NCBI RefSeq assembly: GCF_018139625.1
Contig: NZ_JAGSOH010000080.1
Location: 1 to 33,875 of the forward strand
Source of the DNA: Actinospica acidithermotolerans
Lineage (GTDB): Bacteria > Actinomycetota > Actinomycetes > Streptomycetales > Catenulisporaceae
Reading direction: 5' to 3'
Length of the DNA: 33,875 bases
Position 1 is the stretch's first letter. Every line of letters starts with the position of its first letter. The notes under the pieces are model-generated. The model saw nothing but the letters and a program-made list of their open reading frames with translations, was not told the DNA's origin and ran no database searches. Shown here piece by piece: positions 14,324 to 25,395 of the stretch. The position numbers were made by a program, and so were the translations under genes.

Positions 14324-14378
14324 CTTGACGGCCGCTGCATCTGACGACCGCAACGTCTGCTTGACGACCGCTACATCT
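14324..14378. repeat. Three degenerate 18-bp tandem units
   Basis: CTTGACGGCCGCTGCATC, a diverged middle unit TGACGACCGCAACGTCTG, and CTTGACGACCGCTACATC follow one another directly after the kinase fragment and run over the aldo/keto reductase stop codon (14371-14373). The outer units differ at two positions. Confidence 0.5.
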
Positions 14379-15324
14379 CCTTCTCCCACCAGCCGCGGGT
14401 GTCGACGTCCGCGGTGTCCGCCAGCGCCTCCAGTTCCGCGATCTCCTTGTCGGCGAGCTCGAGGCCGCGGGCTCGGAGCAGCCCGTCGACGTGATTCGCC
14501 TTCGTGACACCGACGATCGGGGTGGTTCCCTTGGCCATGGCCCAGGCGGTGGCGACATCGGCGGCGGAGGCGCCGCGGTCCTCGCCGATCGCCGCCATCC
14601 TGTCCGTGAGCGCCTGCAGCCGGGGAAGGATGGCGTTGTACGCGGTCGCCCGGGTGCTGCCCTCGGGCAGCGGATTGGCCGGGCTGTACCTGCCGGTCAG
14701 CGCTCCCTGTTCGAGGACCATGTAGGAGAAGAACCGCACCTCGTGCTCGCGGCAGTACTCGAGGATGCCCGCGCGCTCGGAGCCGCGGTACAGAAGGCTG
14801 TAGTGGTTCTGGACCGCCTCCACCCGGAAGCCGGCCTCGCCGAGGATCCGGTCGGCGAGAGCGATCTCCTCCATGTTGTGGTTCGAGACGCCGACATGCT
14901 TTATCTTGCCGCTCTCCAGTAGCGGGATCAGGGACGGCGTCCAACGTGCCACGTCGGAAGGATTGTGGATCCAGTACAGATCCACATAGTCCGTACCCAT
15001 GCGGTTCAGGCTCTGCTCCAGCATGTCCGCGACCGGATCGTCGCCGTCGCCCGCCAACTGCGGGGTGAACTTCGTCGACAGCTGGTACTCGCTGCGGTCA
15101 TAGCCGCTCAGGGACTGAGCGAGGACCGACTCCGAGCGGCCCATCCCGTACGCCAAGGCGGTGTCCCACAGGGTGAACCCGTTCGACTGCGCCTTCTCGA
15201 CGACCTCGCGTAGACCGGACGCGCTCAGCCGGCTGCCGAAGTAGCCGTCGCCCGCCTCTCCGCTGTCTCCCCAGGCCCACGTGCCCAACGCCACCGCCGG
15301 CACGTTCAGCGCCTTGCTCGTCAT
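14371..15324 (-). CDS. Aldo/keto reductase
   Basis: A 317-residue NADPH-dependent oxidoreductase of the AKR superfamily (TIM barrel), reducing aldehydes or ketones. The catalytic tetrad is visible: Asp54 and Tyr59 (WDTALAYGMG), Lys85 (LSTKF) and His120 (YWIHNP). The C-terminal cofactor region is TPIVGVTKANHVDG. ATG at 15324 follows GGAGG; longer in-frame versions would start within the divergent promoter. It is divergent from an XRE/MmyB regulator, a common pairing in actinobacteria where the regulator controls an oxidoreductase. Cytoplasmic; substrate unknown. Confidence 0.93.
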   Translation of the reverse strand: MTSKALNVPAVALGTWAWGDSGEAGDGYFGSRLSASGLREVVEKAQSNGFTLWDTALAYGMGRSESVLAQSLSGYDRSEYQLSTKFTPQLAGDGDDPVADMLEQSLNRMGTDYVDLYWIHNPSDVARWTPSLIPLLESGKIKHVGVSNHNMEEIALADRILGEAGFRVEAVQNHYSLLYRGSERAGILEYCREHEVRFFSYMVLEQGALTGRYSPANPLPEGSTRATAYNAILPRLQALTDRMAAIGEDRGASAADVATAWAMAKGTTPIVGVTKANHVDGLLRARGLELADKEIAELEALADTADVDTRGWWEKEM

Positions 15325-15416
15325 GTCCTGCCTCCGTTGATTGTTCTCGCGATCGTGTCGGAACGATCGATACCCAGCAGACCGCGGTCGCCGCCGCCGG
15401 AGAAGGTCGCGCCTAT

Positions 15417-15437
15417 GGGGGTACAACTTCAACCCCC
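15417..15437. promoter_or_regulatory. 6-9-6 inverted repeat in the AKR/XRE promoter region
   Basis: GGGGGT and ACCCCC flank a 9-base AT-richer centre, 25 bases upstream of the XRE regulator start and about 95 bases upstream of the aldo/keto reductase. Candidate operator for the XRE regulator. Confidence 0.4.
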
Positions 15438-15461: not shown

Positions 15462-16376
15462 ATGAAAGGCATGGACCGATTGCCCGGAAACCGCGGCGAT
15501 ATCCGGGATTTCCTGGCCAGCCGGCGCGCCAAGATCACTCCGGCGCAGGCCGGACTGCCGACCAGCGCCCGCCGCCGGGTCCCCGGGCTGCGGCGCGAGG
15601 AGGTCGCCGTCCTCGCCGGCGTGAGCACGGAGTGGTACACGCGGCTGGAGAAGGGCCACATCGGCGGCGTGTCCGAGGACGTGCTCGACGCGGTCGCCCG
15701 CGCCCTGCGACTGGACGACGACGAGCGCACCTACCTGTTCGACCTGGCCAGGTCGTCGCGGCAGGAGAGCCGCGCGCCGTCGCGTTCGCGTCGCCGGGAC
15801 GTCGAGGTCCCGCCCCGCGTCCGCTGGCTGCTCGAGTCCATGACGACGTCCTCGGCATTCGTCCGCAACGGCCGGACGGACATCGTGGCCGGCAACGCCC
15901 TGGCCAGAGCCGTGTTCGCGCCGATGTTCGGCAGCTCCACCGTCGACGGGCACGGCCGTCCCAACCTCGCCCGCTACATCTTCCTCGACCCGGGTGCCCG
16001 CGATTTCTTCGTCGACTGGGAAGCCGCCGGCATCGCCACCGCCGCCCTGCTGCGCGCCGAGGTCGGGCGCGAGCCCCGTGACCGGGCACTGCGCGAACTC
16101 GTCGGCGAGTTGTCCACCCTCAGCCCCGAGTTCCGCGGCCGATGGGCCGCGCACGACGTCCTGATGCGCCACGACGGCGTCAAGCGGCTCCAGCACCCCG
16201 AGGTCGGCCACCTGGAACTGACCTTCCAATCCCTCGACCTGCCGCTGCCGGGCCGAGCCGTGCACGAACTGATCGTCTACACTGCCGAGCCCGGTACCCC
16301 ATCCGAAGACCGGCTCAAACTCCTCACGAGCTGGGCGGCAACGCAACGACCGCAAAGCCACGCGGACGCCGTCTAG
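15462..16376 (+). CDS. XRE-family regulator with MmyB-like ligand domain
   Basis: A 304-residue protein. The N-terminal helix-turn-helix (about 15-80) includes RRRVPGLRREEVAVLAGVSTEWYTRLEKG, nearly diagnostic of this actinobacterial group. The C-terminal MmyB-like domain (about 110-280), which binds small molecules (fatty acids in studied cases), includes NALARAVFAPM, NLARYIFLDP and LSPEFRGRWAAHDV. ATG at 15462 has no clear Shine-Dalgarno; ATG at 15471 is an alternative, and a leaderless transcript is possible. Divergent from the aldo/keto reductase, its likely target. Confidence 0.92.
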   Translation: MKGMDRLPGNRGDIRDFLASRRAKITPAQAGLPTSARRRVPGLRREEVAVLAGVSTEWYTRLEKGHIGGVSEDVLDAVARALRLDDDERTYLFDLARSSRQESRAPSRSRRRDVEVPPRVRWLLESMTTSSAFVRNGRTDIVAGNALARAVFAPMFGSSTVDGHGRPNLARYIFLDPGARDFFVDWEAAGIATAALLRAEVGREPRDRALRELVGELSTLSPEFRGRWAAHDVLMRHDGVKRLQHPEVGHLELTFQSLDLPLPGRAVHELIVYTAEPGTPSEDRLKLLTSWAATQRPQSHADAV

Positions 16377-16435: not shown

Positions 16436-17089
16436 ATGTTCATGCTCCGACCTCCGGGCGTTTATGCAGCGCAGGGCGATACGTTTCTGCTGATCTCCGC
16501 GTTGCGCCGGGAGGGGCTCGTGCCGGGCGCGCAGGTGCTCGATGTGGGGACCGGTAGCGGGGCGCTGGCGGTCGCGGCCGCTCAGCTCGGAGCCTCGGTG
16601 ACGGCGGTGGACGTCTCGCGGCGCGCGCTGTTTGCGGCGTGGGCGAACGGGGCGTTGCGCGGCAAGCGCATCGCCGTGCGGGTCGGGTCGCTGCTCGAAC
16701 CTGTGCGGGACCGTCGTTTCGACCTGGTGCTTTCCAATCCGCCTTACGTCCCGTGCCCAGGCCGAGGGCTGCCGGCGCACGGCGCGGCGCGCGCGTGGGA
16801 CGCCGGACCGCGGGGACGTGCGCTGCTCGACCGGCTGTGCCGGGACGCGCCGCGTGTCCTCAACCCGGGCGGGGCCGTGCTGCTCGTGCACTCGGCGTTG
16901 TGCGGGACGGAGGCGACGTGCGCCGCGCTGGAGCGCTCCGGCCTGAAGACCCAGGTCGTGGCGCGCATGACCCAGCCATTCGGACCGGTCATGCGGGCGC
17001 GGGCGCGGTGGTTCGAGCGGCAGGGGCTGATCGACGTCGGGGAGCGGGAGGAGGAACTGGTGGTGGTGCGCGGTGAGCGACCCAGGTGA
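16436..17089 (+). CDS. HemK-like class I SAM-dependent methyltransferase
   Basis: About 217 residues. The SAM-binding motif is VLDVGTGSGAL (about 35-45), followed by VTAVDVS, and the NPPY motif (LSNPPYVP) marks the glutamine/adenine N-methyltransferase group. The FMLRPPGVYAAQGDT start matches short HemK-like actinobacterial proteins that lack the N-terminal PrmC domain. ATG at 16436 is chosen because homologous sequence begins here; GTG at 16415 is possible and neither has a strong ribosome-binding site. It overlaps the CDGSH gene by 17 bases, so the two are probably made together. The methyl acceptor is unknown: glutamine of a protein or a small molecule. Confidence 0.85.
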   Translation: MFMLRPPGVYAAQGDTFLLISALRREGLVPGAQVLDVGTGSGALAVAAAQLGASVTAVDVSRRALFAAWANGALRGKRIAVRVGSLLEPVRDRRFDLVLSNPPYVPCPGRGLPAHGAARAWDAGPRGRALLDRLCRDAPRVLNPGGAVLLVHSALCGTEATCAALERSGLKTQVVARMTQPFGPVMRARARWFERQGLIDVGEREEELVVVRGERPR

Positions 17090-17459
17090 CGGGCCGGAGC
17101 ACGACGGGCGGCGCCAGACTTCGGTGAGCGACCCGGGTGCCGGCGCGGTGAGCGACCCGGGTGCCGGGTCGGCGCGCCGCGAGCGGTGCCGGGTTGTGAT
17201 GCCTGGCGCGATCGGTCCCGTCCTCGTGCAGGGTCCGGTGGAGGTGGTGCTCGACGACGGTACGATCCGGTCGAGCGATCGGCCGGTGGTGGCGTTGTGC
17301 GCGTGCGGCCGAAGCGGGAGCTATCCGTTCTGTGACACGAGCCATCGTCGTCGCTCGCGCCCACGGCGTGGTTCAGACGACGGCGACTCACGTCCACGCC
17401 GCGGATCAGCGAGCGGCGACCAGGGCCCCGGGGCTGTCGGTGAGCGGGATACGCAGTGA
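17073..17459 (+). CDS. CDGSH-type [2Fe-2S] protein
   Basis: A 128-residue protein. CACGRSGSYPFCDTSH gives the 3Cys-1His cluster ligands Cys76, Cys78, Cys87 and His91 of the CDGSH (mitoNEET-type) motif, with Thr in place of the usual Gly after Asp88. Such proteins transfer clusters or electrons. The N-terminus repeats SDPG(A/D)G three times because a 20-base unit is repeated, and each copy begins with a GTG, so GTG at 17124 or 17148 are alternative starts. The Arg/Ser/Asp-rich tail is unusual and overlaps the convergent iron-enzyme gene by 54 bases. Likely an electron donor for that enzyme (inference). Confidence 0.82.
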   Translation: MSDPGDGPEHDGRRQTSVSDPGAGAVSDPGAGSARRERCRVVMPGAIGPVLVQGPVEVVLDDGTIRSSDRPVVALCACGRSGSYPFCDTSHRRRSRPRRGSDDGDSRPRRGSASGDQGPGAVGERDTQ

Positions 17460-18437
17460 GCTGTGATGTTGCCGCCAGCACTCGACGGCGTGTTCGCCGA
17501 GTTTGTCGTCCGCCCGCACACTCGCTGCGAGACCGAACGCGATGTCCTCTTCGAGGTGCGGCTCGTCCTCGAGCAGCGCGCCGATGACCTCCCGGCGCAC
17601 GAGCTGTTCGTGGACGGCGTCGGCTTCGACGTGCTCTCGGTAGAAGTCCGTGCCGTCGGCGGACGCGCCGAGTCGGGTCAGTGCTTCGGCGAGCCGGCGG
17701 GCGCCCGGCGAGGAGGTGATCTCGACGGCGGCGAACTGGCCGATGAGGGCACCTCGGTGCTCGCGGTGCAGACCGAAGAGCGACATCAGATTGACTGCGG
17801 CTAGCGCCTCGGCGGGCGCCGCCGCCACATATGCGCCGTACGTAGCATCCAGGCCCATGTCGCGCATCATGGTGGCGAACAGCAGCGAGTGCGTGCGCTG
17901 CGGATTTCCGCCTCCGTACTCGTCGTACTCGATCGCCAGATATGCCGCCTGGGCCCGGCCGTGCAGCCGTGGAATGACCCACGCCTGCGGATCGGCCTCC
18001 TTCAGGTGGTAGAGCGAGCGTTGCGCAAGGTACTCGCGGGCCTGCCAGCGTTCGCCTTTCTCCAGCAGGTAGTGGGAGGGTCCGCTTCCGGTTGGCGGTT
18101 CGACGAGCAGTTCCTCGAGCTGGTCTTCGAGCGCGGGTACCTGGCCCAGTTCTTCGCGCACGGCGGCGAGGAAGCAGTGCTCGAGTCGGGCGCGCAAGGC
18201 CAGGAGAGAAGGGTCCCACTCCCAGCGCGGTGCGACGCCCTCGAAGCCGCGGTAGTGCAGTTCGTAGCAGATGTAGAGCGCCAGCTGGTGGTCTTCGCCG
18301 CGCGGATCACCGGCGTCGGCCAATCGCGGCGAGATCGGTGTTCCGTCCGGCGGGGAGGTGAGCCGATCGACGACCACGGCGCTGACGGGGCCGCGCGGCG
18401 GAGGCAGCAGCGGGGTTCGGGTGTCGGTGATGCCCAT
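17406..18437 (-). CDS. Haem-oxygenase-like iron-containing redox enzyme (HDO type)
   Basis: A 343-residue all-helical protein of the iron-containing redox enzyme family (haem-oxygenase-like diiron oxidases and oxygenases, which include UndA, BesC, CADD and the central domain of SznF). Candidate iron ligands are Glu170/Glu173 and His183 (IEYDEYGGG...THSL), Glu239 (GQFAAVEIT) and His269, Asp273, His276 (YREHVEADAVHEQLV), the usual spacing of this fold. ATG at 18437 follows GGAGG. It begins 11 bases after the dimethylargininase-like gene, so the two form an operon, and it converges on CDGSH. Expected to use O2 to oxidise, desaturate or cleave an amine or amino-acid-like substrate; the exact reaction is unknown. 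Confidence 0.88.
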   Translation of the reverse strand: MGITDTRTPLLPPPRGPVSAVVVDRLTSPPDGTPISPRLADAGDPRGEDHQLALYICYELHYRGFEGVAPRWEWDPSLLALRARLEHCFLAAVREELGQVPALEDQLEELLVEPPTGSGPSHYLLEKGERWQAREYLAQRSLYHLKEADPQAWVIPRLHGRAQAAYLAIEYDEYGGGNPQRTHSLLFATMMRDMGLDATYGAYVAAAPAEALAAVNLMSLFGLHREHRGALIGQFAAVEITSSPGARRLAEALTRLGASADGTDFYREHVEADAVHEQLVRREVIGALLEDEPHLEEDIAFGLAASVRADDKLGEHAVECWRQHHSSLRIPLTDSPGALVAAR

Positions 18438-18448
18438 CGTTCGCCTCC

Positions 18449-19315
18449 TCAGTTCAGGGCGGGACTCGGTCCGGGTCGGCTCGGTCCGGGTCCGGCGCGC
18501 AGTTCCAGGACACAGCACTTGGGACCGCCGCCCGCCTTCAGCAGTTCGCCGAGCTCGACCGGGACCGGCTGGTATCCGCGCTCGGCGAGGCGGCCGGCCA
18601 GGCGGGAGGCCGCGGCCGGCAGGACGACGTGGTACCCGTCGCTGATCGCGTTCAATCCGAAGACGGCGGCATCCTCGTCGTCGGCCTCGATGGCGTCGGG
18701 GAACAGGTCGCGCAGCCGGTTCAGGCTCTCGGCGCAGAACGCCCCGGGCAGGTACATGATCTCGCGGCCGTCGAGCACCGCGAGCGCCGTGTCCAGGTGG
18801 TAGTAGCGGGGATCCACCAGCCTCAGGGCGACCACGGGCCGGCCGAAGTAGCCGCCCGTCTCCGGGTGCGAGCCCGGATCGCTGCGCGGCCCATGACCGG
18901 CCAGGATGACCCCGCCGGCGAGCAGATGGTCGCCCTCGCCCTCGTTCGCCTCCCCGGCTCGGCGCACCGGCCGGTAGCCCCGCAGCCGGAACCAGCGCTC
19001 GAACGCGGCGGACTCGCCGGCCCGTTCGCGGTGGCGGAAGCTCGCCACGAGCACCCGGCCGTCGATCACGGTCGCGGCGTTCGCGGTGAAGACCATGTCC
19101 GGCAGTCCCGGCCGGGGCGGCGCCAGCTCGACCCGATGCCCGAGTCCGCGCAGCACGTCCCGCAGGGCGGTGCACTGCGCCTGGGCGAGCGGCGTGTCCA
19201 CCGGACGCCCCGGCTCCATCCACGGGTTGATCGAGTAGTCCACGGTGAAGTGGTCCGGCGGGCACATCAGGTAGGAACGGGGGCGGGCGACCCGCCCCAC
19301 GGTGTGGGCGGCCAT
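18449..19315 (-). CDS. Dimethylargininase / amidinotransferase-fold guanidine hydrolase
   Basis: A 288-residue protein of the guanidine-modifying superfamily (DDAH, arginine deiminase, amidinotransferase), working through a covalent Cys-amidino intermediate. Visible are PDMVFTANAA with Asp73, NEGEGDHLL (Glu127, Asp129), the catalytic His173 in YYHLDTAL and the catalytic Cys at 267/268 in GGGPKCCVLEL. Length fits DDAH. DDAH enzymes turn methylated arginine into citrulline and methylamines. ATG at 19315 has AGGAG. It is first gene of a two-gene operon with the iron enzyme. The Pro-rich last 15 residues are atypical. Deiminase or amidinotransferase activity is a lesser possibility. Confidence 0.88.
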   Translation of the reverse strand: MAAHTVGRVARPRSYLMCPPDHFTVDYSINPWMEPGRPVDTPLAQAQCTALRDVLRGLGHRVELAPPRPGLPDMVFTANAATVIDGRVLVASFRHRERAGESAAFERWFRLRGYRPVRRAGEANEGEGDHLLAGGVILAGHGPRSDPGSHPETGGYFGRPVVALRLVDPRYYHLDTALAVLDGREIMYLPGAFCAESLNRLRDLFPDAIEADDEDAAVFGLNAISDGYHVVLPAAASRLAGRLAERGYQPVPVELGELLKAGGGPKCCVLELRAGPGPSRPGPSPALN

Positions 19316-19455: not shown

Positions 19456-19836
19456 ATGCAACTGGCCTGGGTGCTCGACTGCCGCGACCCGAGGCGGCTG
19501 GCCCCGTTCTGGGCCACCGTGCTCGGCTACCGCGCCGGCCCGTTCAAGCCCCCGTACCTCACCCTGACGGACCCGGCCGGGCGTCGCCCGGACCTGCTGC
19601 TGCAGCGCGTGCCCGAGAAGAAGTCGGGCAAGAACCGGATGCACCTGGACCTGCGGGTGGCCAGCCTGGAGGAGCCGCTGGAACGGTGCCTGGAGGCGGG
19701 CGCCCTCGTGCTGCGCGGGCCGTTCGACGACGACGGCTGGCTCACGACCGTCCTCGCCGATCCGGAGGGCAACGAACTGTGTCTGCTCGTTCCCCCGGAA
19801 GGGCCGGAGCGCGACGCGGTTCTCGATCCGGAGTAG
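19456..19836 (+). CDS. VOC (glyoxalase/bleomycin-resistance fold) protein
   Basis: A 126-residue protein. The ARRLAPFWATVLGY-like opening (LDCRDPRRLAPFWATVLGY), KNRMHLDLRV and the closing LADPEGNELCLL are typical of the actinobacterial single-domain VOC-like group. His in MHLDL and Glu in GNELCL are the likely metal or substrate ligands. Start has GGAG five bases upstream. It stands alone between the divergent dimethylargininase-like gene and the convergent ATPase. Function of this subgroup is generally unassigned. Confidence 0.87.
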   Translation: MQLAWVLDCRDPRRLAPFWATVLGYRAGPFKPPYLTLTDPAGRRPDLLLQRVPEKKSGKNRMHLDLRVASLEEPLERCLEAGALVLRGPFDDDGWLTTVLADPEGNELCLLVPPEGPERDAVLDPE

Positions 19837-20015: not shown

Positions 20016-23000
20016 TCAGTCTTCCGCGTGGGTCGGCGCGCGGCTCGCGGCGATCTTCTCGACGAGCCCCGGCGCGGCCGCTCCGGCGAGGGTCGCCGTC
20101 GCGCAGGAGGCGCCGACGATGCCCCAGGCGACCGGCCCGAGCGGCGTGCAGCCGAAGAAGCGGCTGACGCCCGGCGTCTCCACGACGGCCACCAGCGCCA
20201 CGGCCGAACCGAGACAGGTGGCCGCGACGAGCGGGCTGCGGCGTCCGGCGAGCAGGGTCTGGCCGAGCTGGGTGCCGACGAGCGCGGCCAGCGCCATCGT
20301 CGAGGCGCGGCGCTCGCGGCCGACGGTCCGCCCGGCCTGCCAGGCGAGCAGCGCGCCGAGCGCGGTGGCGCCGCCGCGCACGGCGAGGTCGCGGCCGAGT
20401 TCCGGGCCCCAGACGCGGCCGACCGGCGCGTCGGCCCGCTCTCCGTCCTGCGGGCGCTCGGGGGCCAGCGCGACGGCGAGGGCGGGCAGCATGTCCGTCA
20501 TCATGTTCACGAGCAGGAACTGCCGGGTGCCGAGCGGCGCCTGGCCGCCGATCGCGGTGCCCAGCACGGTGAAGGCGATCTCGCCGGCGTTCCCGCCCAC
20601 CAGGATGCCCACGGCCGCGCGCACCCGTCGCCACAGCGCCCGGCCCTCCTCGATCGCGTCGAGCAGCCGCAGCGGCTCGGGCTCGGTCAGGACGAGGTCC
20701 GCGGCGTTGCGCGCCGGCACGCTGCCGGTGCCGGCCAGCGCGATGCCCACGTCGGCCGCGCGGATCGCGGCCGCGTCGTTGCTGCCGTCGCCCGCCATCG
20801 CGACCACGCGGCCGGTGCTCTGCAGCGCCTGGACGATGCGCACCTTGTGCTGCGGGGAGACCCGGGCGAACACGGTGGTCTCGGCGATGCGCCTGTCCCG
20901 TCCGGCCTTCGAGAGCCGGTCGAGTTCGGCGCCGGTGAGCACGCGGTCGGCGTCCGGGATGCCGAGCCCGCGCGCGACCGCGACCGCCGTGCGGGGATGG
21001 TCGCCGGTGATCATGACCGGGCGGACGCCGGCGGCCGTGAGACGTTCGACGGTCTCGCCCGCTCCGGCGCGCGGAGTGTCGGCGAGCGCGACGAAGCCGA
21101 GCAGGGTGAGTTCTCCGACCAGGCCGGGCAGCCCCTCGCGGGTCGCGGCGGCCTCCGGGACCGCGCGCTCGGCCACGGCGAGCACCCGCAATCCGTCGTC
21201 GGCGAGCCGCTTGAGGGTGTCCGCGGCGGTACGGCGGCGCGCGGCGTTCAGCGGGCTCGTCCCGTCGTCCGTGGCCACGGAGACACAGCGTTCGAGCAAA
21301 CCCTCGGGAGCGCCCTTGACGATCAGGGTCCGGCTGCCGTCGCGGTCGCCGAGCGCGGCCGAGTAGCCCCGGTTGCTCTCGAACGGCAGGTCGGCCACCG
21401 GTACCCAGGACTCTGACTCCGGGTCTTCGATCTCGCGCGCGGCCTTGACGATCGCGCTGTCCGTGGCGTGCACGTCCGCGTCGGGGCAGGCCCGCGCGGC
21501 GTCCCGCAGGAATCTGCGGCCCCGCTCGTCGTCGGGGGCGAAGTCCCGGTCGAACGCCGCGGAGCGGTTGACCGACAGGCGCCCCTCGGTGAGTGTTCCC
21601 GTCTTGTCGAAGCACAGGGTGTCTACCCGGCCCAGCGCCTCCAGGGTGCTGGCGGATCGCACCAGGACGCCGTGCCGGGAGAGCCGGCGGGCCGCGCCGA
21701 GCTGGGCCACGGTCGCGACCAGCGGCAGCCCCTCGGGCACCGCGGCCACCGCGATGGCGACGCCGGACGCCAGCGCGCGCCGGAAAGGCACCCCGCGCGC
21801 CGCGGCCAGCGCGGTCACCGCCACGCCGCCGATTCCGGTGGCGGGCAAGGCGATCCGGGTCAGTTCCGTCAGCCGCGCCTGGATTCCGGCGCGCGAGGGA
21901 GACGAGGCTCCGGCGACCGCCGCCGCGCGTCCGGCCTCGGTGTCCGGGCCGACGGCGGTGACGACCGCGTACGCGGTGCCGGCGAGCACGGTGCAGCCCT
22001 CGTACACCATGCAGGCTCGCTCGGGCAGGTCGGCGCCCGGCGTCGCATCGAGGGACTTCGCGACGGGCAGCGATTCGCCGGTGAGCGCGGACTCGTCCAT
22101 CTCGAGCCCGTCGGCCGACAGAAGCCTGCCGTCGGCGGGCACGATGTCGCCGGCCCGCAGGGCGATCACGTCGCCGGGCCGTAGCTGATCGGCCGTCACC
22201 GTGCGCGTCGAGGCCTTGCCTTCCGGCACGGGCCAGCGGGTGAGCCGCGCGCGCCGACGCTCGCCGAGGAGCAGGCCGCGCATCGCGCGCCGGGCGCGGA
22301 GCCGCTGCCCGGCGCTGATGACCGCGTTGCCGCCCATGACGCCGGTGACCAGGGCCGCGTCGACGCTGGAGCCGACCACGGCGGAGGCGGCGGCGCCGAG
22401 GGCCAGGACGGGGGTGAGCGGGTCGCGCAGTTCCTCGACCACCGCGCCCCCGAACGAGGCGAGACCCCGGACCGGGTCGATCACGACGTGCCGCACGGGC
22501 GGCGTGGCCGCCAGCCGTCGACCGGCTCCGCGCGCCAGGCGCAGCGCGACGGGCGGTCGGGACAGCGCTTCGCGTCGCCGCTGTTCTGCACGTCGTTCGC
22601 GCAGCCGCTTGAAGGCCTCGTCAGCGGAAAGCGCGTGCCACGCGGTGTGGTCGGTCGGCCGCGGGGCACGCTCCCGCCCGACGCGCAGTCCGTGGTACGC
22701 GCCGCCGAGGACAGCGAGCGTCGCCGCGCCGTGTACGGGCGAGAGGCGCGGGGTGCGGCGACTGCGGCGGTCGCCCGAGACGGCGATCAGCGCACCGAGG
22801 GAGCCGCCGGCCCAGGCGAACCGGGTCGAGGTGCGGGTGACGGCGCGGGCCGCCGGCACGGCGTGCAGCAGCCGCCACACCTCCACGAGTCCGGGACCGG
22901 CGATGAAGTCCGCCGCCCAGCCGACGGCGGCGGCGCAGGAGCCGGGGCGCGGGCACGGCACCGCGACCGAGACGTCGGCCCCGGCCAGCGCGGCGTCGTC

Positions 23001-24644
23001 GGCGCACGCGACCAGCAGCACACCGTGGCCCTCGCGCTGCAGGTCGCGAATGTGCCAGCAGAGCCCTCCGTCGCCGGGCAGCACGTCGTCCACCCAGGGC
23101 AGCAGGGGTTCGATATTCGTGTTCTGAGTGACCAGGACCCGGTCCGCGGCCTCGTGCGCGGCGGCGAGGACCGCTTCGGCGTGCGGGTCGAGGCCGCGGC
23201 CGACCTGCACGACGCCGCGGCGTACGTCCTCGACGTCGATCAGGTCGAGTTCGAGGGCTTCGGCGATGCCGCGATCGGGCTCGCGTGTCCTCGGCTGCAG
23301 CCGCCAGTGCTCGTCGCGCCATTCCGAGGCGGATTCGGGCGGTCCGTCGGCGAGCAGGCGCTCGGCGATCAGCCGCACCTCCTCGTCCTCGAACCCTGCT
23401 TCGCCGCGGGCGTCGAGCACCGTCGGCGGGCCGCCGCACAGCACCGTCGCGTCGATCACCACCGTGTCCACCCGGTCGAGCCGGCGCAGCGCGGTGCCGT
23501 CGAGCGGCAGCACCCCGTGCCCGGCGAGGCAGAGCCCGAGCACCGCGGCGAAGGCCTCGCGGCCCTGCCGGCCCGCCTTGGGCATGGTCGCGAGCATCAG
23601 TTCGGCGGCACGCCCCGGATCCCGGGTGAACGCGAGGACTCCCCCGGCGCCGATCAGCGAGGCGATCGCCTCTCGGTCGCCGAGCTTCTCGATCGGGCCG
23701 TCCGGCAGCGGCGCCGGGCGCGGCTCGCGGACCGGGGCCTGCGCGGCGAGGCCGCGTCCGTCCCCGGTGAGCTCGCCCTCCCGCCGGCGCCAGACGGCGC
23801 GGCGGCCGAGCCGTTCGGCCAGGCGCAGCGAGTGGTGCGCGCAGTCGACGGCCAGCGGCCCTGGCCCGAGGCTCGCAGCGTTCACCGTGGAGGTGGCGAG
23901 CGCGACGAGCAGCTCGGCCCGCTGGTGGCCGAGCCGGTCCTCGAGGCCGCGGCGCAGCGGCGGGTAGGTGTCGGCGAGCAGCAGCGGCAGCCGCGCGGCG
24001 CGCGGCAGCGGGGCCACGTCGGCGATCCGGAACGCGATCGCCGCGCCCAGACCGGTCAGATCGGTGGCCAGGGCCAGCGCGGCCACCTCGATCGGCTCGT
24101 CGTCGGCGGGATGCTCCGGGGTTCCGGCCGCCTCCCGCCCGGCGGCGAGATCCGCGTCTCCGGTGCCGTTGTCCCCCTCGACGGCCTCGATGACCGCGAG
24201 GATCTCCTCGATGCCGATCTGCTCCTCGTCGAAGGCGAGCAGCACCTCGCGGGTGACCGCGTTGACCTTCGCCCACTTCACCCCGCGCAGCCGGCTGAGC
24301 GCGGCGGTCACGTCCGCCGCCACCCGGCGATGCGTCTCGCCGCGCCCAGTCAAGCCCTTGACCTCGATGTGCGCACGGCCGGCGCGTGTCCAGGCCCGGC
24401 GCACGCCGTGACCCACCGCGACCTCCCGGATGTCGCCGAGCAGGTTCGCGGGATGCCCGGGCAGCCTCGACGCCGCGCCGCGCAGACCCGCGGCGCCCTG
24501 CCCGGCCACCGCACCGCCGACCGCCCGCGTCACGGTCGCGGACCCCTGGGCGGCCGCGCCCGCCAACCGGAGCGACGCGGCGCCGGTGTCCCGGCTGTAC
24601 GCGGCAAGACGGCTGAGCGGGGCCAGCGCGGGCATCAACGGCAT
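20016..24644 (-). CDS. Giant CtpI-like P-type cation ATPase
   Basis: A 1542-residue protein, about the size of mycobacterial CtpI (roughly 1600). An N-terminal region has a HMA-like fold (about 90-150) without the CxxC metal motif. A long second module (about 150-700) resembles a degraded ATPase half. The catalytic half carries TGES (about 853), PEGLP in a transmembrane helix (about 966), the phosphorylated Asp of DKTGTLT (about 1013) and GDGSND (about 1283), then C-terminal helices. PEGLP rather than CPC suggests type-2-like Ca/Mg/Na ions rather than heavy metals. ATG at 24644 follows GGTGA; longer starts would overlap the divergent hemerythrin gene. Ion specificity is unknown. Confidence 0.9.
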   Translation of the reverse strand: MPLMPALAPLSRLAAYSRDTGAASLRLAGAAAQGSATVTRAVGGAVAGQGAAGLRGAASRLPGHPANLLGDIREVAVGHGVRRAWTRAGRAHIEVKGLTGRGETHRRVAADVTAALSRLRGVKWAKVNAVTREVLLAFDEEQIGIEEILAVIEAVEGDNGTGDADLAAGREAAGTPEHPADDEPIEVAALALATDLTGLGAAIAFRIADVAPLPRAARLPLLLADTYPPLRRGLEDRLGHQRAELLVALATSTVNAASLGPGPLAVDCAHHSLRLAERLGRRAVWRRREGELTGDGRGLAAQAPVREPRPAPLPDGPIEKLGDREAIASLIGAGGVLAFTRDPGRAAELMLATMPKAGRQGREAFAAVLGLCLAGHGVLPLDGTALRRLDRVDTVVIDATVLCGGPPTVLDARGEAGFEDEEVRLIAERLLADGPPESASEWRDEHWRLQPRTREPDRGIAEALELDLIDVEDVRRGVVQVGRGLDPHAEAVLAAAHEAADRVLVTQNTNIEPLLPWVDDVLPGDGGLCWHIRDLQREGHGVLLVACADDAALAGADVSVAVPCPRPGSCAAAVGWAADFIAGPGLVEVWRLLHAVPAARAVTRTSTRFAWAGGSLGALIAVSGDRRSRRTPRLSPVHGAATLAVLGGAYHGLRVGRERAPRPTDHTAWHALSADEAFKRLRERRAEQRRREALSRPPVALRLARGAGRRLAATPPVRHVVIDPVRGLASFGGAVVEELRDPLTPVLALGAAASAVVGSSVDAALVTGVMGGNAVISAGQRLRARRAMRGLLLGERRRARLTRWPVPEGKASTRTVTADQLRPGDVIALRAGDIVPADGRLLSADGLEMDESALTGESLPVAKSLDATPGADLPERACMVYEGCTVLAGTAYAVVTAVGPDTEAGRAAAVAGASSPSRAGIQARLTELTRIALPATGIGGVAVTALAAARGVPFRRALASGVAIAVAAVPEGLPLVATVAQLGAARRLSRHGVLVRSASTLEALGRVDTLCFDKTGTLTEGRLSVNRSAAFDRDFAPDDERGRRFLRDAARACPDADVHATDSAIVKAAREIEDPESESWVPVADLPFESNRGYSAALGDRDGSRTLIVKGAPEGLLERCVSVATDDGTSPLNAARRRTAADTLKRLADDGLRVLAVAERAVPEAAATREGLPGLVGELTLLGFVALADTPRAGAGETVERLTAAGVRPVMITGDHPRTAVAVARGLGIPDADRVLTGAELDRLSKAGRDRRIAETTVFARVSPQHKVRIVQALQSTGRVVAMAGDGSNDAAAIRAADVGIALAGTGSVPARNAADLVLTEPEPLRLLDAIEEGRALWRRVRAAVGILVGGNAGEIAFTVLGTAIGGQAPLGTRQFLLVNMMTDMLPALAVALAPERPQDGERADAPVGRVWGPELGRDLAVRGGATALGALLAWQAGRTVGRERRASTMALAALVGTQLGQTLLAGRRSPLVAATCLGSAVALVAVVETPGVSRFFGCTPLGPVAWGIVGASCATATLAGAAAPGLVEKIAASRAPTHAED

Positions 24645-24840
24645 GAGTCGTTCACCGTCCTTCACGAGCGGGCAGAGTGCGGCGGGTAACCGATCTGGCA
24701 CCGCTGAAACAGAGCCGCCGCCCGCCTCGTGTTCACCGGGGGAAGCCGTCAAACGGATGACGTGTGGCCGCTGGGAATGCGGGCACCAGCGCGGCACCTC
24801 CGCCGAGCGGCGGAACGACCTACCGATAGGGGCGAGAGCC

Positions 24841-25395
24841 ATGACCGGACACGAGGGAAACGTCATCGCGGAACTGACCACCGACCACAGGGAGGTCGAG
24901 GGGCTGTTCGAGAAGTTCAAGGCGCTCGCACCCGACGATCACGCCGGCCGGCGCGAGGTGGCCGACGACTTCACCACGGAACTCGTGCGCCACTCGGTCG
25001 CCGAGGAGCAGTACCTCTACCCCGCGGTACGCGAGCACGTACCGGGCGGCGGAGCCATGGCGGACAAGGAGCTCGCCGACCACGAGAAGGTCGAGCAGCT
25101 GCTCAAGGACCTCGAGCGCGCCGATACCACCGACCCGCGGTTCGACACCCTGGCCGCCGAGGTCATCGAAGAGGTCACCTCGCACGTCAAGGACGAGGAG
25201 GAGCGCCTCTTCCCGGCACTGCTCGAAGCTTGCCCCATGGACTACCTCTTCGAACTCGGCGACAAGATCCGCACGGCGAAGGCCGCCGCCCCCACCCGGC
25301 CTCATCCGAACGCGCCGGACAACAAGGTCGCCACCGCGGGCGCCGGGCTCGTCGACCGCGTCCGCGACCTGTTCTCGGGGAGGAGCAGGTCTTGA
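24841..25395 (+). CDS. Hemerythrin HHE-domain protein
   Basis: A 184-residue protein with the hemerythrin-like cation-binding helical bundle (about 5-130). Probable diiron ligands are His16 (TTDHREVE), His51 and Glu55 (RHSVAEEQYLYP), His81 (DHEKVE) and His115 and Glu119 (SHVKDEEERLFP). The C-terminal 50 residues are Pro/Ala-rich and basic. It likely binds O2, NO or iron, or scavenges peroxide. It is divergent from the P-type ATPase; the 196-base gap holds the promoters. Plus-strand GGGTAAC (24684) and GTGT-N15-GGGCAC (around 24761) resemble stress-sigma -10/-35 elements, at low confidence. Confidence 0.92.
   Translation: MTGHEGNVIAELTTDHREVEGLFEKFKALAPDDHAGRREVADDFTTELVRHSVAEEQYLYPAVREHVPGGGAMADKELADHEKVEQLLKDLERADTTDPRFDTLAAEVIEEVTSHVKDEEERLFPALLEACPMDYLFELGDKIRTAKAAAPTRPHPNAPDNKVATAGAGLVDRVRDLFSGRSRS

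Follow-up and report, generated by a model that had tools for sequence, protein, structure and literature searches.

Within a 33,875-nucleotide stretch of Actinospica acidithermotolerans DNA (contig NZ_JAGSOH010000080.1, positions 1 to 33,875; hereafter the window), two gene pairs converge on one another, raising the question of which of the four genes belong together and what chemistry they serve. One pair, on the reverse strand, comprises a gene for a guanidine hydrolase resembling DDAH and arginine dihydrolases (18449-19315) and, 11 bases downstream of it, a gene for a predicted haem-oxygenase-fold diiron oxygenase (HDO; 17406-18437), whose ATG at 18437 is preceded by AGGAGG. The other pair, on the forward strand, encodes a HemK2/MTQ2-type methyltransferase dependent on S-adenosylmethionine (16436-17089) and a CDGSH iron-sulfur protein (17073-17459), the two genes overlapping by 17 bases if the latter starts at 17073. 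The 3' ends of the HDO and CDGSH genes overlap by 54 bases. An earlier note on this DNA had described these two facing units, and profile matches and coordinates confirmed all four genes: the methyltransferase (217 residues) scored 106.1 bits against TIGR00537 (cut-off 87), the CDGSH protein 60.9 bits against PF09360 (cut-off 29.5), the HDO (343 residues) 190.7 bits against PF14518 (cut-off 28.9) and the DDAH-like protein (288 residues) 390.9 bits against the 'dimethylargininase' model NF045659 (cut-off 300). The conserved unit, however, is the trio of HDO, CDGSH protein and HemK2/MTQ2-type methyltransferase, not the pair of HDO and DDAH, and the DDAH-like gene lies outside this core.

Each of the three families, PF14518, CDGSH and MTQ2, has a single above-cut-off member in the 7.9-Mb genome that contains the window, and all three lie within 2 kb at this locus; four weaker methyltransferase matches elsewhere fall under the MTQ2 cut-off. 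We then compared 99 relatives by genome searches that score limited first-pass candidates, such that absences are not absolute. HDO matches below 60 bits, which were weak or partial, were dropped, leaving 80 relatives with a full-length HDO out of 86 with any match. CDGSH occurs in all 80, versus three of the 19 relatives without a full-length HDO, and in those three the motif occurs solely as a pair within open frames of at least 700 residues, a different kind of protein. MTQ2 (E ≤ 1e-25) occurs in 76 of the 80 and in none of the 19. Proximity follows the same pattern: of 83 HDO genes, 78 have CDGSH and 69 have MTQ2 no more than 3 kb away; a non-adjacent MTQ2 gene can sit elsewhere in the genome, as in genomes G014 and G021. 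In a phylum sample of 296 genomes, the window's class is represented by 35, and 24 of these have both HDO and CDGSH, 11 have neither and none has one alone. Across the whole sample, CDGSH was found in 45 of 59 HDO genomes versus 50 of 237 others.

The same association is evident at the level of gene neighbourhoods. As a de novo census of neighbours was noisy, picking up antisense frames in GC-rich DNA and, through one filter, missing real MTQ2 and CDGSH genes, neighbour counts were taken from profile-based annotation and genome searches. A search of 84,980 species genomes with exact peptide patterns of the window HDO yielded 105 relatives, the best 80 of which form a named-locus set that hence leans to close relatives. 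CDGSH lies near HDO in 76 of these loci, the methyltransferase in 71, an EgtD-like methyltransferase in 18 and DDAH in three. The earlier note had proposed surveying HDO neighbourhoods across actinobacteria for CDGSH and methyltransferase genes, and both proved to be conserved there. It had also named rarity of DDAH or CDGSH near HDO as what would count against its proposal; DDAH is indeed rare, but CDGSH is not. In a further set, 56 of 78 HDO loci contained CDGSH versus none of 38 arbitrary 15-kb control loci (38 of 40 arbitrarily chosen positions, 37 of them from the same genomes as the HDO loci); flanks in loci L001-L033 span only 1.5 kb.

The complete trio was found in seven distinct gene orders or orientations. 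On a FastTree phylogeny of 169 HDOs, which omits duplicates (L035-L059, L008, L017, L118 and L119) and rows shorter than 250 residues, the neighbourhood label switches 48 times or more, CDGSH presence 11 times, MTQ2 18, EgtD nine and DDAH three times; these counts are inflated because some genes beyond a short flank or the end of a contig are wrongly scored as absent. The trio thus stays together across many rearrangements, which argues for a functional link, and the association of HDO, CDGSH and MTQ2 is far beyond chance. In three loci from related Pseudonocardiales metagenome genomes (L133:6710-8014, L163:1744-3030 and L167:6710-7996), three of 55 same-strand CDGSH-HDO pairs, the two proteins are encoded by one uninterrupted frame, and a Pfam scan of the L133 frame recovered both domains. 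CDGSH also adjoins HDO on all three plasmids examined from among the 17 whose records matched the HDO. On the Streptomyces plasmid, two SigB-family genes enclose methyltransferase, CDGSH and HDO; the Kitasatospora plasmid carries a YbdK-type ligase (L228:2866-4020), DDAH and HDO, followed by converging CDGSH and MTQ2 genes; and the 62-kb Curtobacterium plasmid pW21 (L227) carries HDO and CDGSH as a two-gene unit with a 4-base overlap, with no methyltransferase in the stretch shown around it.

To place the HDO structurally, we used an AlphaFold2 model (predicted local distance difference test score 91.6, predicted template modelling score 0.91), which, together with its PF14518 membership, assigns the protein a predicted haem-oxygenase-like fold. 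Among solved structures, the model is closest to HrmI (Z 31.8; 2.6 Å over 305 residues), SznF (29.3) and RohS (28.3), so that Z values of 28-32 extend over 281-307 residues. These are followed by 3bjd (25.2) and FlcD (24.7), with all remaining matches at 19.1 or below and TenA, PqqC, BesC, UndA and PolF at 16.1 or below. A sequence-profile search returned the same three proteins first, in the same order. HDO residues E147, E173, H183, E239, H269, D273 and H276 align with SznF E189 (which we take to be a metal ligand), E215, H225, E281, H311, D315 and H318; the alignment is gap-free over the ligand region, the spacing of the seven positions is identical, and none of the seven varies among 31 aligned HDOs. 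The protein thus has the set of three histidines and three to four carboxylates, and is predicted to bind metal. In SznF, the last six of these residues are described as metal-binding and essential (PMC11705231).

The nearest neighbours of the HDO in both sequence and modelled structure therefore form the N-oxygenase subgroup of SznF, HrmI and RohS, and N-oxygenation is predicted. HrmI is reported to oxygenate the side-chain amine of lysine and SznF to hydroxylate methylarginine (PMC13108848), and RohS is likewise described as an N-oxygenase (PMC13232832). Unlike SznF, the window HDO lacks a cupin domain, PF14518 being its sole listed Pfam match up to E 0.1, and is partnered by CDGSH and MTQ2 genes; the absence of a C-terminal cupin sets it apart from SznF-type N-nitrosourea synthases. 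No NCBIfam model matches this HDO or the 30 other aligned HDOs up to E 0.01.

The CDGSH protein contains a single motif, C-x-C...P-x-C-D-T-S-H, whose histidine is found in 19 of 20 aligned sequences and is replaced by arginine in L199. Its three cysteines and one histidine in one motif place it with the type 4 CDGSH proteins, and it is predicted to bind a [2Fe-2S] cluster. The structure spanning most of its profile is 3tbm (E 1.9e-8), presumably that of RsCISD, a type 4 bacterial protein with which it shares the single motif but from which it differs in being linked to an HDO. Neither its N-terminal nor its C-terminal tail is conserved in the alignment. The N-terminal tail (17073-17171) includes a VSDPG(A/D)G unit three times, and because each unit begins with GTG, and aligned relatives are shorter, the true start is uncertain. 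Type 4 proteins are reported to predominate in Actinobacteria and Firmicutes (PMC3174974).

For the methyltransferase, which the earlier note had called HemK-like, the family was right and can be narrowed to the HemK2/MTQ2 type: in addition to the TIGR00537 score, all 21 aligned sequences share an NPPY motif, and the best solved relative of the family profile is human N6AMT1/HEMK2 (E 1.6e-25). Methylation of the glutamine of a GGQ release factor is a putative activity. In contrast to N6AMT1, the window enzyme is bacterial and co-occurs with an HDO.

Building on the genes, their co-occurrence and adjacency through rearrangements, the fused frames, the predicted fold class and the ligand positions, we tentatively favour, with somewhat less than even confidence, a system in which a diiron enzyme (N-)oxygenates a substrate derived from an amino acid and is served by a CDGSH electron donor and by MTQ2-type methylation; its reaction, substrate, electron transfer and methyl target are all what we infer. 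The HDO would bind two irons and activate O2, and would most likely N-oxygenate a small molecule derived from an amino acid, at an amine or another nitrogen, as SznF, HrmI and RohS do. The [2Fe-2S] CDGSH protein may be a dedicated donor that delivers two electrons per turnover, returning the diferric HDO centre to the diferrous state. The MTQ2-type enzyme would N-methylate the substrate or product, or else a glutamine of a partner protein. Individual lineages would add amino-acid enzymes to this core: the arginine-dihydrolase/DDAH-like protein here, an EgtD-like protein in Pseudonocardiales and a YbdK-type ligase elsewhere. Nitrogen chemistry and electron donation by CDGSH had both been suggested in the earlier note, and they are sensible inferences since the HDO-CDGSH pair is conserved and three times fused and the HDO is closest to SznF-type N-oxygenases of amines and guanidines. 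A more far-reaching version, in which the system is phylum-wide, an SznF-class oxygenase draws its electrons from a type 4 CDGSH protein dedicated to it (and in one clade covalently joined), and MTQ2, with or without an EgtD-like enzyme, helps to form an N-oxidised, N-methylated stress metabolite, strikes us as rather unlikely. If it were true, bacterial single-motif CDGSH proteins would gain a defined partner.

Several points weigh against the favoured mechanism. The HDO is only 17-20% identical to SznF, HrmI and RohS, and the fold alone does not set the reaction, as HDO chemistry is reported to span C-C cleavage to alkyne formation (PMC13108848). In the phylum sample, no CDGSH match was found in 14 of 59 HDO genomes, and 40 of 64 HDO places have CDGSH within 4 kb, such that the link is weaker outside the window's class; this distance count used 50 selected CDGSH places in HDO genomes, and the presence and absence counts used all 95 genomes with a match. 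Among 50 divergent phylum loci (L060-L109), CDGSH is near 28 and MTQ2 near 13, and MTQ2 is missing from four of the 80 relatives with HDO. Certain HDO orthologues thus manage without either partner. The co-occurrence counts ignore shared ancestry, and the fusion is probably a single event, as the three fused loci fall in one clade of the tree. CDGSH proteins can transfer their clusters as well as electrons, and the MTQ2 family is known for methylating glutamine in release factors, not metabolites.

The DDAH-like gene shows a different distribution from the trio, and a role for it as a core gene was rejected on these grounds. In a search of 31 relatives, a DDAH homologue was found in 30, irrespective of HDO status, but it lies beside HDO by coordinates in only three, the three genomes of the window's own genus. 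Its three occurrences beside HDO in the named-locus set are all in Streptacidiphilus, with a further one on the Kitasatospora plasmid. The placement of DDAH at the core of the pathway, as the earlier note had it, is thus not borne out, nor is a methyl- or hydroxyguanidine as the general common substrate indicated, given how rarely DDAH is near HDO and how the protein itself is related: such chemistry is at most the variant of one clade. Although the protein exceeds the cut-off of the dimethylargininase equivalog model, its closest structures are not DDAHs but the arginine dihydrolases Sll1336 and Alr4995 (ArgZ and AgrE; E 8e-47 to 1e-44), with DDAH structures matching only at E 5e-6 to 1e-4, which puts it closer to the arginine dihydrolases than to structurally characterised DDAHs. 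NnhA was not among its structure matches. The full cyanobacterial ArgZ and AgrE proteins have about 700 residues, and the window protein is a single domain.

Local recruitment of the DDAH-like gene to the HDO may nevertheless have occurred, because seven aligned HDO-linked copies carry GGGPKCC or GGGAKCC where five others carry GGSVKC, and because the best match in the window's genome to the Catenulispora-type aminotransferase, at 39%, is not a close homologue. This ornithine-aminotransferase-like gene was found, on reading the sequences, to adjoin DDAH in three of nine other DDAH loci (L203, L206 and L207). A glyoxalase-like gene (19456-19836) lies divergent from the DDAH-like gene in the window, and a homologue sits beside DDAH in the Streptacidiphilus loci L121 and L123.

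Several other lineage-specific neighbours of the trio also appear, from their profile matches, to be amino-acid enzymes. The EgtD-like amino-acid methyltransferase (represented by L124:5042-6034) is on the HDO strand in 17 of its 18 named loci. The family, aligned from ten of the 18, matches EgtD at E 6e-72; the L124 member, however, scores 255 bits, under the EgtD model cut-off of 290.9, and an EgtD glutamate, which we take to be the histidine-binding E282, is an invariant glycine in all ten aligned sequences. Owing to this score and this replacement, the enzyme probably methylates an amino acid other than histidine. The YbdK-type carboxylate-amine ligase was found in 7 of 78 and 4 of 80 HDO loci (11 of 158) versus none of the 38 controls. 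An 11-member cluster (L072:10184-11719) encodes an FAD-dependent oxidoreductase with a C-terminal Rieske domain, as judged by Pfam for the L072 member, and its genes lie directly upstream of HDO on the same strand in L168, L174, L182, L185, L193 and L197; it is a possible alternative source of electrons. L084 (166-1179) and other divergent HDO loci contain a glycosyltransferase-2-like gene, identified by Pfam in the L084 member; a cluster from 11 loci, seemingly the same family, is in most cases located roughly 1 kb downstream of HDO.

Other explanations of the trio have to be set against the favoured oxygenase. Acinetobacter baumannii DtpC, an HDO-domain protein with six HDO ligands predicted, is reported to limit H2O2 during desiccation, protection that is disrupted by mutations in its HDO domain (PMC13232832), and by analogy the window HDO could use O2 or H2O2 to limit oxidative damage during drying or stress with electrons from CDGSH, any product being incidental. 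The SigB-family genes flanking the trio on the Streptomyces plasmid fit this account, as do genes for SigB-type sigma factors, STAS, RsbW-like or CsbD proteins in 21 of 78 HDO loci versus 2 of 38 controls, weak support, from classes pooled after the plasmid neighbours had been seen and with such genes in just 9 of the 80 named loci. Upstream sequences give a similarly mixed signal. GGGTAY precedes 43 of 99 run-leading HDO genes versus 116 of 954 other genes, but it is partly palindromic and occurs in 69 of 230 leader regions on the right strand versus 65 of 230 on the opposite one. Of the 230 leader regions, 13 contain a full SigB-like promoter and 6 have one on the opposite strand, compared with 21 of 954 other genes, and the strictest pattern reduces these to 5, 3 and 11, a modest signal uncorrected for ancestry. 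Stress protection of this kind also offers no reason for the methyltransferase, EgtD-like, YbdK and DDAH-like neighbours. It is the main rival to the favoured oxygenase, but we regard it as unlikely. DtpC, compared with the window HDO by its published description, is reported to be co-transcribed with a catalase; a word search of the main text of that paper did not find 'CDGSH' (PMC13232832).

The remaining alternatives reassign one partner at a time. Rather than donating electrons, CDGSH could supply iron or a [2Fe-2S] cluster for assembly or repair of the HDO diiron centre, a role that the transferability of CDGSH clusters would permit and that the co-occurrence and fusion data fit equally; the frequent lability of HDO diiron centres also speaks for it (PMC13108848). 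Characterised HDOs are, however, generally loaded with Fe(II) in vitro without such a partner, and a permanent fusion of CDGSH to HDO fits repeated electron transfer equally well or better, which together leave a donor of this type decidedly unlikely. There is likewise only a slim chance that the methyltransferase acts solely on protein, at a glutamine of the HDO, the CDGSH protein or a translation factor, with no methylation of a small molecule: its best profile match and its NPPY motif would suit such a substrate, but the enzyme tracks HDO in presence and absence, rather than a universal translation factor, and is missing from four HDO genomes. Finally, the pathway put forward in the earlier note, with HDO oxidising and DDAH hydrolysing a methyl- or hydroxyguanidine and with the methyltransferase and CDGSH assisting, can draw on the 11-base gap between the two genes, on their adjacency in the genus, in three Streptacidiphilus loci and on the Kitasatospora plasmid, on the action of SznF on methylarginine, and on the distinct motif and missing aminotransferase homologue that make a local role plausible. 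It is very improbable as an account of the system, given that DDAH adjoins so few HDO loci, occurs with or without HDO and is nearer to arginine dihydrolases.

The oxygenase with its CDGSH donor, which we continue to favour, has a precedent in the mangotoxin enzymes MboA and MboB, where an HDO is encoded with its own iron-sulfur protein as a dedicated redox partner; MboAB is put forward by its authors as perhaps the first such pair to be characterised (PMC13185094). MboB is described there as an NAD(P)H reductase containing flavin and [2Fe-2S], whereas the window partner is a small CDGSH protein with no flavin domain. In literature searches that covered subscription papers poorly, we found no publication linking HDO or 'iron-containing redox enzyme' to CDGSH and none joining CDGSH with HemK2/MTQ2. 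No such system was among the actinobacterial CDGSH matches listed, the MboA paper was the sole match found on HDO genome neighbourhoods, and none was found on 'iron-containing redox enzyme' in a Streptomyces methyltransferase gene cluster. The trio thus looks like an undescribed amino-acid oxidation system built from known families. The superfamily numbers more than 10,000 proteins, of which around a dozen HDOs are reported to be functionally validated (PMC13108848). As a full-length HDO, always with a CDGSH protein in the genome, is present in 80 of 99 relatives, the product or protective role of the trio is probably shared widely by streptomycetes and related lineages. The trio also gives CDGSH proteins and bacterial MTQ2 enzymes a tractable oxygenase as partner, and the natural fusion allows electron transfer to be tested directly.

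Further out in the window, a very long P-type ATPase frame spans 20016-24920, with an N-terminal heavy-metal-associated-like match slightly below the curated cut-off. On the other side of the four genes, an MmyB-like helix-turn-helix regulator with a ligand-binding domain and an aldo-keto reductase are encoded divergently at 15462-16376 and 14371-15432.

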